Shown piece by piece: positions 48,195 through 55,643 of a stretch of 64,000 nt of DNA (its first letter is position 1; each line of letters starts with the position of its first letter). The stretch spans positions 1 through 64,000 of the forward strand of contig JASHNT010000087.1 of assembly GCA_030041495.1 (NCBI GenBank), in the 5' to 3' direction. The translations under genes were made by a program, and so were the position numbers. The notes under the pieces are model-generated. The model saw only the letters and a program-made list of their open reading frames with translations, ran no database searches and was not told where the DNA came from. Source of the DNA: Bryobacteraceae bacterium (GTDB taxonomy: Bacteria > Acidobacteriota > Terriglobia > Bryobacterales > Bryobacteraceae).

Positions 48195-48584
48195 CTAGAC
48201 GGCTCGCAGACCGAGGTGCTTCACGAAGGGATCGAAGTCGCGGTCGTCGTGGAGCAACTGGTACCCGCTCTCGATGCAGCGCGTGGCGATGAGGCAGTCG
48301 ATCGTCTTCCGAACCGTCACCCCCAATCCGCGCAGCGTGTGGAAATTTTGTGCGGCTTGTATCGCGACGTGCAAGCCGCCGATTTCGACAGTCACCAGCG
48401 CCCTGAGACGGTGAACCGCCAGCCTGAACTCCTCGTCACGATCAAAGCCCTGCAGGACCTCGGCCAAGATTAAGTCGCCGATCGCGAGTTGCTCACGTTC
48501 AAGCAAAGCCTGGAGCTGCTCGGTTTTGGCGGTAACAGCTCCCCTGAAATAGGCGATCCAGACGCTCGAATCGACGAGAATCAT
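48195..48584 (-). CDS. VapC-type PIN-domain toxin
   Basis: MILVDSSVWIAYFRGAVTAKTEQLQALL...TIDCLIATRCIESGYQLLHDDRDFDPF. Confidence 0.92.
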   Translation of the reverse strand: MILVDSSVWIAYFRGAVTAKTEQLQALLEREQLAIGDLILAEVLQGFDRDEEFRLAVHRLRALVTVEIGGLHVAIQAAQNFHTLRGLGVTVRKTIDCLIATRCIESGYQLLHDDRDFDPFVKHLGLRAV

Positions 48585-48775
48585 CGATCAAGTCTCATCG
48601 CCTCCAGGTCGCCTTCCCAGTGAAGCTTCCCACGCAGATCCCGAATCCGCGCTTGCTTCCGGAGTCGAACCAGCGTGCGAAGTCCCGCTTCCACGGCCTC
48701 GCGTTTGGTCTTGAACCCCGTGGCCTTGAGCGCCTCACGCATCAGCTTATCGCCGATGACGATGTTGGTTCGCAT
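48581..48775 (-). CDS. VapB-type antitoxin
   Basis: MRTNIVIGDKLMREALKATGFKTKREAVEAGLRTLVRLRKQ; ATGA overlap with vapC. Confidence 0.92.
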   Translation of the reverse strand: MRTNIVIGDKLMREALKATGFKTKREAVEAGLRTLVRLRKQARIRDLRGKLHWEGDLEAMRLDR

Positions 48776-48809
48776 GATGTGTATGATCCACTACGATTAT
48801 GCACATCAT
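48774..48809. promoter_or_regulatory. candidate VapBC operator, inverted repeat
   Basis: ATGATGTG (48774-48781) and CACATCAT (48802-48809), 8-bp perfect arms with partial symmetry in the centre. Confidence 0.6.
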
Positions 48810-49282
48810 CCCGACCACGACTCGAGCTGCCCGATGACGGCCGCGGCCAGCGGCTCCAGCGCGGCGCGGACGGGAGGCGTCAACTCGGCGCTCCATTCGG
48901 TGGAAAGAGGCTGGACGCCGAGAACGACGACTTCCTCAGGCGAGCCTCCGATAAGCTGCAGCGCGGTCATCAGGTCGGCGAATCCGAGCTGGTGAACGGA
49001 TGGTTTGCCGGGAAGTCCCTTCAGCGCCGCGCCTTCGATCCGGACCACGGTGCCGGGCGCCTGGCCGACATCAACCGCATCGACCACCAGCAAGCGGCGC
49101 AACCCGGAAATGCGCGAGAGCAGATTGAGGCCGTGCGTGCCTCCATCGAGCAACTCGACGCCGGAGGGGACGCGCGGGTCGTCCGCGAGCCGGTCGATCA
49201 GATGTACCCCGATTCCATCGTCGGAATGGACCAGGTTGCCGAGGCCGAGGACCATGGTCCCGGCGAGGGTTTCTGCCATCAT
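48806..49282 (-). CDS. hydrogenase maturation protease (HyaD/HupD family)
   Basis: MVLGLGNLVHSDDGIGVHLIDRLADDPRVPSGVELLDGGTHGLNLL. Confidence 0.92.
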   Translation of the reverse strand: MMAETLAGTMVLGLGNLVHSDDGIGVHLIDRLADDPRVPSGVELLDGGTHGLNLLSRISGLRRLLVVDAVDVGQAPGTVVRIEGAALKGLPGKPSVHQLGFADLMTALQLIGGSPEEVVVLGVQPLSTEWSAELTPPVRAALEPLAAAVIGQLESWSG

Positions 49283-50028
49283 GGCAATTTGGAATACAGC
49301 TCGTCGTCTTTTTTCAGGTCTTCTTCCGGGATCACTTTGTAGCCGATGAAAATGCTGTCCATCAGCCCCTTCTTTTCCTCGCGCGAAACCAGCATGGCCA
49401 GGTGGACGTGCAGGATGCCGAAAGCGATGAAGATCCACATCAGACAGAAGTGGATCAGCCGGATGTTGGGGGGGCTGATAAGGCGCGGAACCCAACCCAC
49501 GAAGAATCCGAGAATCGCGCTGTGCCGCAGCACGTTGTACATCACCAGGCCGGTGACAATTTCGACGAACACCATGGCGTAGAGGCCGACGTAAGACATC
49601 GCGGCCAGCGCGTTGTGGCCGATCTTGGAAACCGGCTCAGGCTTGACGAATAGGTAGAACTTGGCCATTTCCACCATTTCGCGGAACTGCTGCTTGCGGT
49701 AAGGGACGTAACTGCGCCAGCGGACCCAGCGGTTTCCCGCGAAGAACAGATACATGCGCAGCACGAACAGCGCGATGAAGATCATGGCAAAGACTTCGTG
49801 GACAAAGCGGAATTCGCCCATCAGGAACGGGTTGACCTGGCCCACGATGTAGGGATCGTGAATGTAGTAGCCGGTGACGCTGAGCACTGCGATACAGATC
49901 ACGATGCCCCAGTGCACCAATCGCAGAGGATATTGCCACACGTAGACGGACACCGCCCGGCCCATCGGCACGGTAGGATGGTGGCCATCGCCGGTCTGGA
50001 TGGCGGGAAGATGATTTACGGGTGTCAT
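49279..50028 (-). CDS. Ni/Fe-hydrogenase b-type cytochrome subunit
   Basis: YVWQYPLRLVHWGIVICIAVLSVTGYYIHDPY...FRFVHEVFAMIFIALFVLRMYLFFAGN. Confidence 0.93.
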   Translation of the reverse strand: MTPVNHLPAIQTGDGHHPTVPMGRAVSVYVWQYPLRLVHWGIVICIAVLSVTGYYIHDPYIVGQVNPFLMGEFRFVHEVFAMIFIALFVLRMYLFFAGNRWVRWRSYVPYRKQQFREMVEMAKFYLFVKPEPVSKIGHNALAAMSYVGLYAMVFVEIVTGLVMYNVLRHSAILGFFVGWVPRLISPPNIRLIHFCLMWIFIAFGILHVHLAMLVSREEKKGLMDSIFIGYKVIPEEDLKKDDELYSKLP

Positions 50029-50042
50029 GAGCAGCCTCCTTC

Positions 50043-51755
50043 CTACCGCACGTTGGGAAGCGTAAACCTGCGGCCGTTAGCGTCGAGCACGTGCACCGCG
50101 CAGGCGATGCACGGATCGAAAGAGTGAATGGTGCGCAGAATTTCGAGCGGCCGGTCCGGATCGGCGACCGGCGTATTCAGCAGCGAGGCCTCATAAGCGC
50201 CGCGCTGACCCTGGCCGTCGCGGGGGCCGGCGTTCCAGGTGCTCGGCACCACTGCCTGGTAGTTCTTGATGGACCGTCCGCTGATTTCAACCCAATGGCC
50301 CAGAGACCCGCGCGGAGCCTCATGCCAGCCGTAGCCCGCAGCGTGATCCGGCCAGGTGCTGGGATCCCAGCGAACCGGATTGAAAATCGCGGTCTTGCCG
50401 TGAGACAGGTTATTGTCCAACTCATCCACCCAGTCTTCCAGGTGCTTGGCCATAATCTGGGTTTCGAGAGCCCGGGCGGCGATGCGGCCCAGCGTTGAGA
50501 AGAGCACCGCTGGCTGGGCATTCAGCGCTTTTAGAGCGCCGTTGACCGCCGCCCGGATCTCTGGCTGGCCCGCGGCGTAACCGACCACCATGCGCGCCAG
50601 CGGTCCCACCTCCATCGGCTTGCCGTCGTAACGCGGCGATTTCAGCCAGGAGTATTTCTTGTCGACGTCCAGTTGTTCGAAAGGCGGCTTCGGGCCGGTG
50701 TACTTGGGATTGGTTTCACCCACCGAAGGATGCTTGCCGTTGCCGTTCCCACCCGAGTATTCGTACCAGGAATGATCCACAGCTTCAGTGATTTTTCCCG
50801 GATCGACCGGCAGCACCTTGCTGATGTCGTGGTTCATCACGATGCCGCGAGGGAACAGGAAAGAGCTGGGATCGTTGGCGCCGCTTGAGCCGTAATCGCC
50901 GTAACACAGGAAGTTGCCCAGACCCTCGCCGCGCGAAAACCAGTCGCTATAGAGCGGCGCGATGGCCAGAACGTCGGGGATATAAACCTGGTCGACGAAC
51001 TTGCGCGCGCTTTTTGCCAGGTCGCGGAGGAAGGTAATCGTGTCCGGATTGATGACCGCTGCGGGCTCATTGGGGTCCATGGCGGTGGTCATGCCGCCGA
51101 CCAGGAAGGTTTGCGGATGCGGATTCTTTCCACCCAAAGCCGCATGAATACGGATAAAATCCTTCTGCCAGGCGAGCGCTTCGAGATAATGCGCCACGGC
51201 CAGCAGGTTCACCTCCGGCGGCAGCTTGTAGGCCGGATGACCCCAGTAGCCGCTGGCGAACAGGCTCAACTGGCCGCTATCGACCACGCCTTTAACGCGC
51301 TGTTGAATGCCCCGGAAATAGGTGGTGGAGGATTTCTCGTAATCGGAGATGGATTGCGCGATCTGCGAAGTTTTCGCCGGATCGGCCTTGAGCGCCGCAG
51401 CGACATCCACCCAGTCCAAAGCGTGCAGGTGATAGAAGTGGATCACATGATCCTGCACCATCTGGGAGCCGGCGATCAGATTCCGGACTATATGGGCGTT
51501 GTCGGGGACTTCGATTTGCAGCGCGTTTTCGACCGCGCGCACGCTGGCAATGGCGTGGACCATGGTGCAGACTCCGCAGATGCGCTGCGCCCAGATCCAG
51601 GCTTCGCGGGGGTCGCGGCCTTGCAGGATCATCTCGATGCCGCGGAACATGGTGCCGGAGCTCCAGGCGTCGGAGATTTTGCCTCCTTCGAGCTGGGCTT
51701 CAATGCGGAGATGGCCTTCAATACGATTGACGGGGTCGACCACCAGGCGTGCCAT
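50043..51755 (-). CDS. [NiFe]-hydrogenase large subunit
   Basis: RICGVCTMVHAIASVRAVENAL and C-terminal SFDPCIACAVHVLDANGRRFTLPNVR. Confidence 0.96.
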   Translation of the reverse strand: MARLVVDPVNRIEGHLRIEAQLEGGKISDAWSSGTMFRGIEMILQGRDPREAWIWAQRICGVCTMVHAIASVRAVENALQIEVPDNAHIVRNLIAGSQMVQDHVIHFYHLHALDWVDVAAALKADPAKTSQIAQSISDYEKSSTTYFRGIQQRVKGVVDSGQLSLFASGYWGHPAYKLPPEVNLLAVAHYLEALAWQKDFIRIHAALGGKNPHPQTFLVGGMTTAMDPNEPAAVINPDTITFLRDLAKSARKFVDQVYIPDVLAIAPLYSDWFSRGEGLGNFLCYGDYGSSGANDPSSFLFPRGIVMNHDISKVLPVDPGKITEAVDHSWYEYSGGNGNGKHPSVGETNPKYTGPKPPFEQLDVDKKYSWLKSPRYDGKPMEVGPLARMVVGYAAGQPEIRAAVNGALKALNAQPAVLFSTLGRIAARALETQIMAKHLEDWVDELDNNLSHGKTAIFNPVRWDPSTWPDHAAGYGWHEAPRGSLGHWVEISGRSIKNYQAVVPSTWNAGPRDGQGQRGAYEASLLNTPVADPDRPLEILRTIHSFDPCIACAVHVLDANGRRFTLPNVR

Positions 51756-51756
51756 G

Positions 51757-52875
51757 TTAATTCTCCCTTCCTTGTTGCGGGGTGGTTTCGGCCGCAGGTT
51801 CGGGCTTAGGCACGGGCTTGATCATTTTGATGAGTCCGTGAGCGGTGACTCCGGCGATGGTCGCTCCCACCAGCCCGACGCCGATTTCACCCGCCGTGAC
51901 TTCGACGCCGAAGCCGGGCACGTTGGGCACGCGCTCATAGAACGGCGACATGTGGTCCCAGAAGCGCGGCGCGGCGCAGGCGATGCAGCCGTGTCCCGCG
52001 CGGACCGGCCAACTGGTATGGTCGTTCCACTGTACAATCGGGCAGTTGAAGGTCCCCACCGGACCTTTACAGCCCATTTTGTACAGGCACCATCCCTTGC
52101 GATGGCCCTCATCGCCCCATTCGGTGACGAAGCGGCCGGCGTCGTAATGGGCGCGGCGCTCGCACTGGTCGTGAATGATGCGGCCGTAGGCGAACAACGG
52201 ACGGTTGTACTGGTCGAGCGCGGGAAGGTCGTTGAAGGTGAGATAGTGAACCAACACCGCGGCGGTATTGGCCGCATTGTGCGGGCACCCCGACATATTG
52301 ATCACCTTGATTCCCGGAACGGCTTCGTGCACGCCGAGCGCGCCGGTGGGGTTGGGATTGGAACGGACCAATCCCCCGTCGAAGGCGCAGGCGCCGACCG
52401 CGATGGTCGCCGCGGCGTTGCGGCACACCGTCTCGGCGATCTCCATGGCGGAATGGCCGCCGATGGTGCAATAGACTCCGTCATCGCCGGTCGGGATGGC
52501 GCCCTCCACGACAACCAGATACTTCCCCTTCTCCTCTTTGACCACGCGATCCAGGATGGCCGTGGCATGCCCGCCCGCGCCTGCCATGATCACTTCGTGA
52601 TATTCCCAAGAGAGCAGGTCGAGCACGACATCGGCGACGTCGGGATGGCTCGACCGTAACATCGATTCCGAGCAGCCGGTGCAATCCTGGAATTGCAGCC
52701 AGACCAGCACGGGTTTGCGCGCCTTGCCCACGGCGGCGACGGTCTGGGCCAGGTAGCGCTCCGGCAGAGCCAGGGTCGCCAGCACACCGCTGCAAAACTT
52801 CACGAGTTGCCGCCGGGTGATGCCGCGCTTGGCGAGCGCCTGTTTCAGTTCAAGATCCTGTGAAAGCATGGCCAA
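51757..52875 (-). CDS. [NiFe]-hydrogenase small subunit with Tat leader and C-terminal anchor
   Basis: TRRQLVKFCSGVLATLAL; VWLQFQDCTGCSESMLRS; MSGCPHN; GHGCIACAAPRFWD. Confidence 0.96.
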   Translation of the reverse strand: MAMLSQDLELKQALAKRGITRRQLVKFCSGVLATLALPERYLAQTVAAVGKARKPVLVWLQFQDCTGCSESMLRSSHPDVADVVLDLLSWEYHEVIMAGAGGHATAILDRVVKEEKGKYLVVVEGAIPTGDDGVYCTIGGHSAMEIAETVCRNAAATIAVGACAFDGGLVRSNPNPTGALGVHEAVPGIKVINMSGCPHNAANTAAVLVHYLTFNDLPALDQYNRPLFAYGRIIHDQCERRAHYDAGRFVTEWGDEGHRKGWCLYKMGCKGPVGTFNCPIVQWNDHTSWPVRAGHGCIACAAPRFWDHMSPFYERVPNVPGFGVEVTAGEIGVGLVGATIAGVTAHGLIKMIKPVPKPEPAAETTPQQGREN

Positions 52876-52911: not shown

Positions 52912-53646
52912 TTAAATGGGATGGGTGGCCAAAGTCATCATGACCTCGGCTTTTTTGCGCCCGGCGCGGGCGTCGAGCCACTTCATCCAGCGGTCGAACC
53001 CCGCTCCGGTGGTGCAGGAAGTCTCGATGATCTCGATCTCCGGGTGAATGCGGCGGGCGTTTTCGCGCGCCAGCTCCGGTTTGAAAGGAACATGCGGCAG
53101 CAGATCGACCTTGTTCAGAATCATCAATTCGGACTTGCGGAAGATGCCCGGGTACTTGAGCGGTTTATCTTCGCCTTCGGCCACGCTGAGCACCACCACC
53201 TTGGCGTCCTCGCCCAGATCGTAGCTAGTGGGACAGACAAGATTCCCGACGTTCTCGATCAGCAGCAGCTCGAGCTCGTTTTCGTGATCGCGCACAACGC
53301 CGCGCTCAGGCGGTGCGCTCAGGTCGAACCAGCCGTTCAAATGCGCCTCAATCATGCGGGCGTCGAGATGGCAGCAGCCGCCGGTCGTGATCTGGCGCAC
53401 CGGGTATCCGTAGCGCTGGAGACGAATCGCATCGTTCTCAGTCTGGATGTCCCCGGTGAGCACGGCGGCGCGAGTGTGGCGGGGCAGGCGCTCCAGGGTC
53501 CGTTCGAGCAGCGCGGTTTTTCCGGCCCCTGGCGAGCCGATGAAATTCAGCGAAAGAGTGCCGGCCGAGGTCAACGACTGGCGAAGTTGCGTCGCGATGC
53601 GGTCGTTCTCACTCAAGACCTTCTTCTCAATCACGACTTGATTCAT
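52912..53646 (-). CDS. hypB: hydrogenase nickel incorporation GTPase HypB
   Basis: LNFIGSPGAGKTALLERTLERL...LTGDIQTENDAIRLQRYGYPVRQITTGGCCHLDARMI...ILNKVDLLPHV. Confidence 0.95.
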   Translation of the reverse strand: MNQVVIEKKVLSENDRIATQLRQSLTSAGTLSLNFIGSPGAGKTALLERTLERLPRHTRAAVLTGDIQTENDAIRLQRYGYPVRQITTGGCCHLDARMIEAHLNGWFDLSAPPERGVVRDHENELELLLIENVGNLVCPTSYDLGEDAKVVVLSVAEGEDKPLKYPGIFRKSELMILNKVDLLPHVPFKPELARENARRIHPEIEIIETSCTTGAGFDRWMKWLDARAGRKKAEVMMTLATHPI

Positions 53647-53659
53647 ACCGATACCTCGT

Positions 53660-53962
53660 TCACGCCGACACCTCGTGGGCCGCTCCCGCGCGCTGATCCG
53701 GGGGTGTGTCTTCGGTGTCATCGAGCTCAAGATGGGCCAGATCAAGGTCTTCCGCGCCGGGCCGCCAGTCGATGGCCAGCTCCAGCGGCTCGAACTCGCT
53801 TCCCTTGACCAAAGCCTCGAAACAAAAACGGAGGGATTCGGGGTCGACTCCCGCGTATTCGCCAATGCGGACGCCAACCTTGACGGCGCGGCGCCCGGGG
53901 TAACGGTCGAGCTCGCGGTGAACCGCCTCAAGGATTGAATTGGCTACGCCCATCTCATGCAT
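53660..53962 (-). CDS. hypA: HypA-like nickel metallochaperone lacking zinc-ribbon cysteines
   Basis: MHEMGVANSILEAVHRELDRYPGRRAVKVGVRIGEYAGVDPESLRFCFEALVKGSEFEPLELAIDWRPGAEDLDLAHLELDD; positioned next to hypB. Confidence 0.85.
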   Translation of the reverse strand: MHEMGVANSILEAVHRELDRYPGRRAVKVGVRIGEYAGVDPESLRFCFEALVKGSEFEPLELAIDWRPGAEDLDLAHLELDDTEDTPPDQRAGAAHEVSA

Positions 53963-54050: not shown

Positions 54051-54338
54051 TCAGTTACCCTCACCACCTCGTGCACCCTCACCGCCCTCCGGAACGAGGC
54101 CTTCCTCTTCCAGCGCGCCGATCTCCTCCAAATATGCAAATGTCCGCGCAGCTTCTTCCTCATCTACGCGGGTTAGGGCAAATCCTACGTGGACTAACAC
54201 GTAGTCACCGACGCGAACCTCCGGAGTAAAGGCCAGGCTGACGTTTTTGCGCACGCCGCAGAAGTCGACGCAGGCGGAGCGGAACGCAGGATCGGCATCT
54301 TCTACGCTCAAAACTTTTCCAGGAACAGCCAGACACAT
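54051..54338 (-). CDS. hypC: hydrogenase maturation chaperone HypC
   Basis: MCLAVPGKVLSVEDADPAFRSACVDFCGVRKNVSLAFTPEVRVGDYVLVHVGFAL. Confidence 0.94.
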   Translation of the reverse strand: MCLAVPGKVLSVEDADPAFRSACVDFCGVRKNVSLAFTPEVRVGDYVLVHVGFALTRVDEEEAARTFAYLEEIGALEEEGLVPEGGEGARGGEGN

Positions 54339-54536: not shown

Positions 54537-55643
54537 ATGCGCCAATTGTCGATCGTTTTCGCCTTCGCTGCCGGATTGAACGCGGCGACGGTCGCGGCGG
54601 ATTCGTCCCGCGGAAGCGAGTTGTTTGGGACGCTGGAATGCGTCCAATGCCATAGCATCAACGGCCAAGGAGGCAAGGCCGGTCCCGACCTGGGGCGCCG
54701 CGTGGATCGCGGATTCACTCCGGCCTCGCTCGCGGCCACCATGTGGAATCACGCCCCGGCCATGTGGGCGGCCATGAAAGAGCGCGATGTCGCCGCCGGT
54801 AAACTCGATGAGCAGGCCGCCATGGACCTGTTCGCGTATTTCTACTCGGCCCACTTTTTCGATAAACTGGGCGACGCCGGCCGCGGCAAGCAGGTCTTTT
54901 CCTCCGGCCATTGCTCGGAATGCCACGGCTTGACCGAAGCCCAACCGAAATCGCCGGACGCCAAGCCGGTGTCGGAGTGGACCGCCATCGGGCGCCCCAT
55001 CGAACTGGTGGATGCCATGTGGAACCATGCGGCAACCATGCGGCCGGAGTTCGCCAGGCGTAAGCTGAGCTGGCCGGAGCTGACCAGCCAGGATCTGACG
55101 GACCTGCTGGTGTACGTGCGGAACTTGCCCTCCACGCGCGAAAAACCGGCCCGGGTCGAAATCACGGCCGGGACCAACGGCGAAGCGCTATTCATGTCCA
55201 AAGGCTGCGCGGCGTGCCACACTGGCGGCAACACCTTAGGACCGAAGCTCAAGGGCATGACGCTTGGCGACATCGCCGTAGCGATGTGGAACCATGAGCC
55301 GAAAATGCCGCCCAATGCGCCGCAACTAAGCACCGACGAGATGCGCGATCTGGTCAGCTATGTGTGGGCCGGGCAGTTCTTCGAAGATTCGGGCAACGCG
55401 GCGGCAGGAGCAAAGGTCTTTTCCTCGAAACATTGCGCGAGCTGCCACGAGGGCTCCGGCACGGCACCCAAACTGGCGGGGAAGACCTTCACCGGCGCGG
55501 CTATGGTCTCCGCGCTGTGGCATCACGGGCCCCGCATGCTGGACGAAATGAAGACGAAAGGCGGGGCGTGGCCGAGATTTGACGATAACGACATGGCCAA
55601 CCTGCTCGCCTATCTCAATAGCGGCGGAAACGCTAAGAAATAG
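54537..55643 (+). CDS. four-CxxCH c-type cytochrome with four tandem repeats
   Basis: CVQCH, CSECH, CAACH, CASCH; matching MWNHAPAM, MWNHAATM, MWNHEPKM, LWHHGPRM; signal peptide. Confidence 0.92.
   Translation: MRQLSIVFAFAAGLNAATVAADSSRGSELFGTLECVQCHSINGQGGKAGPDLGRRVDRGFTPASLAATMWNHAPAMWAAMKERDVAAGKLDEQAAMDLFAYFYSAHFFDKLGDAGRGKQVFSSGHCSECHGLTEAQPKSPDAKPVSEWTAIGRPIELVDAMWNHAATMRPEFARRKLSWPELTSQDLTDLLVYVRNLPSTREKPARVEITAGTNGEALFMSKGCAACHTGGNTLGPKLKGMTLGDIAVAMWNHEPKMPPNAPQLSTDEMRDLVSYVWAGQFFEDSGNAAAGAKVFSSKHCASCHEGSGTAPKLAGKTFTGAAMVSALWHHGPRMLDEMKTKGGAWPRFDDNDMANLLAYLNSGGNAKK

Follow-up and report, generated by a model that had tools for sequence, protein, structure and literature searches.

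A HypA homologue without a zinc ribbon in a Bryobacteraceae hydrogenase operon, and its recurrence among relatives

The 64,000-nucleotide stretch of DNA analysed here (hereafter the window; contig JASHNT010000087.1 of a Bryobacteraceae bacterium) encodes a HypA protein from which the zinc ribbon is cleanly missing. The protein is a homologous variant of HypA and not a canonical HypA, because the ribbon is absent although the zinc site has been called universal, a 2019 review stating that every HypA has a zinc site in addition to the nickel site (PMC7055735). In a 2025 review, HypA is likewise described with both domains and apparently no exception is named (PMC12134894), and we found no description of a ribbon-less HypA in the open-access literature searched. 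Very probably, the protein is a working but reduced, single-domain nickel metallochaperone whose ribbon was cleanly deleted, in frame, from between the last two strands. This reading is supported by the retention of nickel ligands, fold, operon, HypB partner and target hydrogenase, by purifying selection and by recurrence in related genomes.

The gene, classified as type A hypA, lies at 53660..53962 on the reverse strand and encodes 100 amino acids. Residues 1-69 match positions 1-69 of the 112 positions of PF01155 (E 3.9e-14; 53.1 bits against a cut-off of 28.9), and the cut-off of the NCBIfam equivalog TIGR00100 is missed (37.5 bits against 88.1), positions 1-65 alone being matched. On reading, the ATG at 53962, with TGAGGAAG immediately upstream, appears to be a sound start; a longer in-frame ORF (to 54163) was rejected, as it runs into hypC and would place the MHE inside the protein instead of at its N-terminus. 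The original prediction, a HypA homologue that keeps the Ni-binding N-terminus and the core, retains one cysteine and runs from the core straight into the final strand, was borne out in all these respects. The nickel site residues Met1, His2, Glu3 and Asp40 are present, the ORF contains no CxxC and hence not the Zn(Cys)4 ribbon with its two CxxC motifs, there is a single cysteine, and in the alignment the segment DLDLAHLELDD corresponds to the last strand of ribbon-bearing relatives. In the window protein, 6 residues connect the last two strands (type A median 6, range 6-12), as compared to 37-43 (about 39) in ribbon-bearing HypA. Alignment with the HypA from genome G023, together with the linker lengths, places the deletion point at approximately 53756..53768 (reverse strand), within ...AIDWRP/GAED..., where relatives carry a two-CxxC ribbon of about 33 residues.

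A structure model (AlphaFold) of the protein, built from 33 aligned sequences, reached a pLDDT of 90.7 overall and about 96 over residues 1-80, the C-terminal tail being of low confidence. It consists of a helix (2-18), a strand (24-34), a second helix (41-52) and two further strands (61-67 and 73-82). When the model was compared with the PDB by Foldseek, the 14 best matches were all HypA chains, as was every match at E <= 0.001 (for example 5aun, 1.8 A over 66 columns), which identifies the HypA core fold. In the model, the last strand simply completes the hairpin, which in canonical HypA is broken up by the ribbon.

Genetically, hypA is linked to hypB and to a [NiFe]-hydrogenase in an intact operon on the reverse strand with the order hypC-hypA-hypB-hupS-hupL-cytB-protease, and this synteny is conserved in relatives. 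Spacers of 88 and 13 bases separate hypA from hypC (54051..54338; 95 aa; PF01455, E 5.3e-27) and from hypB (52912..53646; 244 aa; PF02492, E 9.9e-23), whose product keeps the CHLD metal motif and the N-terminal docking motif. They are followed by hupS for the hydrogenase small subunit (51757..52875; PF14720 and PF01058), hupL for the large subunit with both active-site CxxC pairs, RICGVC and DPCIAC (50043..51755; PF00374, E 5e-230; the only [NiFe] large subunit in the genome), the gene for the cytochrome b subunit (49279..50028; PF01292, E 5.3e-23) and that for a maturation protease of the HycI/HupD type (48806..49282, start approximate; PF01750, E 1.1e-25, residues 97-222 of a 229-aa ORF). 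The genes hypD, hypE and hypF are grouped on another contig, C2 (L194, 4904-10494), such that, together with hypC, hypA and hypB in the window, the HypA-F maturation set is complete except for the ribbon. On contig C2, a 390-aa ORF, whose product looks like a protein with two sugar-isomerase domains of the SIS type, is located between hypD-hypE and hypF, and in the encoded HypF one zinc-finger cysteine is replaced by aspartate, just as in L031 and L033. Two small overlapping ORFs resembling a VapB antitoxin and a VapC PIN-domain toxin (48195-48775, reverse strand) lie just downstream of the hydrogenase operon, and a multi-haem cytochrome c with several cytochrome c domains (54537-55643, forward strand) is encoded as the divergent neighbour of hypC.

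Profile search of the draft genome, which is 98.2% complete, yielded neither a second PF01155 match nor a separate HypA-like ribbon piece. A second canonical hypA, originally envisaged as a sign of a specialised role, was thus not detected, and the window gene is apparently the only hypA of the organism rather than an extra copy; a further hypA could be absent from the draft assembly.

The recurrence of zinc-less homologues that had been anticipated was readily apparent among Bryobacteraceae-like Acidobacteriota, here termed the family. HypA matches in a first sample of relatives were either full-length or mostly ended at profile position 57-69. A census then returned PF01155 matches in 131 of 237 family genomes with a bimodal distribution, most of them extending to positions 110-112 and some forty stopping around 52-69. 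The proteins with short matches were read individually and assigned to types, and ribbon-less HypA was found in 38 of the 131 HypA-bearing genomes: type A in 27 (including that of the window), type B in 10 and type C in one (G008). It is the only HypA detected in 34 of these genomes, while four (G036, G177, G113 and G237) also encode a ribbon-bearing copy. Within a sample of 396 genomes from the phylum, judged by the best E-value per genome, a reading that genomes with both forms escape, three genomes outside the family proved ribbon-less, two with type B (G334 and G634) and one with type D (G567). The type D protein (L186/L195), encoded along with its own hypB, hypF-C-D-E and a hupS-hupL-cytB-hupD operon, represents a separate change of ribbon state. 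An alignment-based scan of genome contigs, which gives nearest matches and not a census, contained 12 ribbon-less proteins among the matches listed, all from Acidobacteriota, and the listed matches from other phyla bear the ribbon; a single-sequence scan of genome contigs returned no matches, and no full-length type A relative was found in plasmids. One of the 12 is a broken fusion (L153, identical to L103 8804-9427, genome G223) in which the first part of a type A hypA continues in frame into the terminal part of the protease gene hupD, as if the intervening operon had been deleted, or through misassembly. Genome G118 encodes, among group 3b hydrogenase genes, a very divergent HypA-like protein (L101 1566-2018, reverse strand; MHESAVVGALV...) with the unusual cysteine pattern TCVCGH and CAAC.

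A phylogenetic tree was calculated for the HypA core, leaving out the ribbon columns. Type B forms a clade of its own (starred branch, 99), type C falls inside a ribbon-bearing clade of the MHELSIA type (starred, 96), type D is placed elsewhere, and all type A proteins reside in a 71-row clade (starred, 95), intermixed with ribbon-bearing sisters. As the short HypA core resolves little, the neighbouring HypB was used for further trees. Without implying a direction, which such counts do not carry, the HypB tree requires seven changes of ribbon state, at least four of them forced by starred branches. When HypB and the HypA core were combined, a careful search gave four changes for type A, bootstrap trees gave four to five, and a single origin of the type A ribbon-less form appeared in no bootstrap tree; a topology grouping all type A rows, i.e., one origin, was rejected (p-AU = 0.0005). 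In the combined tree, the window HypA belongs to a nine-row clade that is ribbon-less throughout (100/98, starred). It is sensible to read the changes as losses, because both the solved structures and the HypA proteins sampled from other phyla carry the ribbon; in one branch, the ribbon was possibly regained by replacement of hypA alone. Between close ribbon-less pairs, dN/dS amounts to 0.10-0.16 and once to 0.35, and the low values in most close pairs point to purifying selection.

The simplest account would be that ribbon-less HypA does the canonical job with its N-terminal site alone. Ni(II) would be bound by the amine of Met1, His2, Glu3 and probably Asp40; in Helicobacter pylori HypA, Asp40 is a likely nickel ligand and His2 and Glu3 have also been named as ligands (PMC5557546). 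The protein would dock on HypB at the hydrophobic N-terminal motif of the latter; HypB is known to bind HypA via hydrophobic residues that lie N-terminally in the GTPase domain (PMC3287977). It would then take over nickel from the Cys/His site of HypB and hand it on to HupL while the active site is open, ahead of protease cleavage; nickel delivery to the large subunit by HypA is described in the 2025 review (PMC12134894). Of the 29 HypB partners of ribbon-less HypA, all retain the metal motif and 26 the docking motif, as compared to 90 of 92 motifs found for the partners of ribbon-bearing HypA. Zinc-linked sensing of pH or nickel cannot be performed by a HypA without the ribbon. Published counter-evidence has to be weighed here: the H. 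pylori zinc-site mutants C74A, C91A and C94A retain 9-12% hydrogenase activity, which is as low as the 12% left upon hypA deletion (PMC5557546), and ribbon loss is therefore harmful in that protein; moreover, in Thermococcus kodakarensis the high-affinity nickel site of HypAB is completed by His98 (PMC7055735), for which ribbon-less HypA has no evident counterpart. The original prediction went further in proposing a reduced nickel metallochaperone adapted to this hydrogenase. While its first part is retained, the adaptation is not: relatives combine the same hup operon type with a ribbon-bearing HypA (L035, L112, L120 and L143), so that the ribbon-less form is not specific to this hydrogenase, and other ribbon-less types occur with other hydrogenases.

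Among the alternatives, it is unlikely that ribbon-less HypA has given up carrying nickel and serves as a scaffold or regulator for the docking of HypB onto the large subunit, with nickel stemming directly from HypB or from the free pool. The HypA from Escherichia coli also acts as a docking platform for HypB (reviewed in PMC7055735), and high nickel can bypass HypAB according to the 2025 review (PMC12134894), but His2 and Glu3 are invariant in type A and Asp40 is more conserved in type A (26 of 27) than in ribbon-bearing HypA (38 of 103). We consider it highly improbable that the ribbon was shed as a zinc-saving measure in habitats poor in this metal. Ribosomal proteins with zinc-free paralogues provide an analogy and the repeated, independent losses would fit, but the zinc fingers of HypF are kept in operons with ribbon-less HypA and, Zur sites left aside, there was no sign of a zinc-linked pairing of both HypA forms. 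Supply of the ribbon in trans by another small protein has still less in its favour: it is conceivable if the ribbon in question is not related to the HypA ribbon in its sequence, but the genome contains no second PF01155 piece and the gaps of 88 and 13 bases around hypA leave no room. Least credible of all is an error of sequencing or assembly or a gene decaying toward a pseudogene, since, although most of the genomes concerned are metagenome-assembled drafts, the clean architecture is found in 38 family genomes with open frames, a conserved operon and the low dN/dS values of most close pairs.

The same architecture in dozens of independent genomes confirms that the clean ribbon-less form is real and due neither to chance nor to sequencing error. 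A frameshift, which had been thought an insufficient explanation from the outset, or an assembly error is ruled out by recurrence and dN/dS, and recurrence also excludes an overlooked CxxC-encoding segment.

Type B extends the picture. Its loci (L023, L077, L080, L082, L084, L085, L088, L090, L092, L094, L185 and L187 as well as the plasmid loci L191 and L193) are hydrogenase operons of group 3b (and Hox-like ones) in which the genes follow the order protease-hypA-hypF-hypC-D-E and hypB is missing. No HypB (E <= 1e-10) was found in any of the 10 tested genomes whose only HypA is of type B, whereas those genomes tested that encode a HypA of type A, C or D or one with the ribbon do have it. Group 3b hypAFCDE clusters lacking hypB are known from Nitrosococcus oceani AFC132 and others, and UreG has been suggested as a stand-in (PMC7285500); a tie to a ribbon-less HypA is apparently not described there. 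Some type B proteins are already labelled HypA in databases, where we found no comment on the missing ribbon. On balance, we lean slightly towards a broader proposal, namely that the zinc ribbon is dispensable for hydrogenase maturation and has been deleted naturally several times, that zinc-free single-domain HypA constitutes a functional class, and that type B in group 3b systems works even without HypB, as a minimal HypA-only nickel insertion.

The role of the HypA zinc site is debated, with structure, sensing of pH or nickel and contacts to partners under discussion. Repeated natural deletions with all else kept make this question directly testable, and the repeated loss of a part of HypA thought to be universal, which is of interest in itself, suggests that the zinc part is not needed for nickel hand-over. 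Ribbon-less cases furthermore reveal where profile-based annotation misses HypA, and they provide a chaperone of smaller size for producing hydrogenases in heterologous hosts.

With the established HypA/HybF proteins (PF01155, TIGR00100; H. pylori 6g81/2kdx, T. kodakarensis 3a43/5aun) the window protein shares the N-terminal MHE nickel site, the core fold, the final strand, the neighbouring hypB and the location in a hydrogenase operon, but it lacks the CxxC pairs and the ribbon, has some 33 residues fewer between its last strands and scores below the TIGR00100 equivalog cut-off. Ribbon-bearing HypA proteins from Acidobacteriota of the same clade (L029 of G023, L035 of G060, L112, L120 and L125) share the gene order, at L035, L112 and L120 with the same hup genes, and the G023 protein is 58% identical to that of the window; they keep RRxRCxxC...CPxC between the same two strands, and the window HypA does not. 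Type B proteins (L023 and L077; L191 from Pandoraea and L193 from Paraburkholderia) are ribbon-less like the window HypA and retain the N-terminal HE where an MHE or VHE start was read, the plasmid-encoded ones being annotated as hydrogenase/urease maturation nickel metallochaperone HypA. Unlike type A, they form a separate clade, mostly have E-H instead of F-C at residues 46-47, and reside in operons and genomes without hypB.
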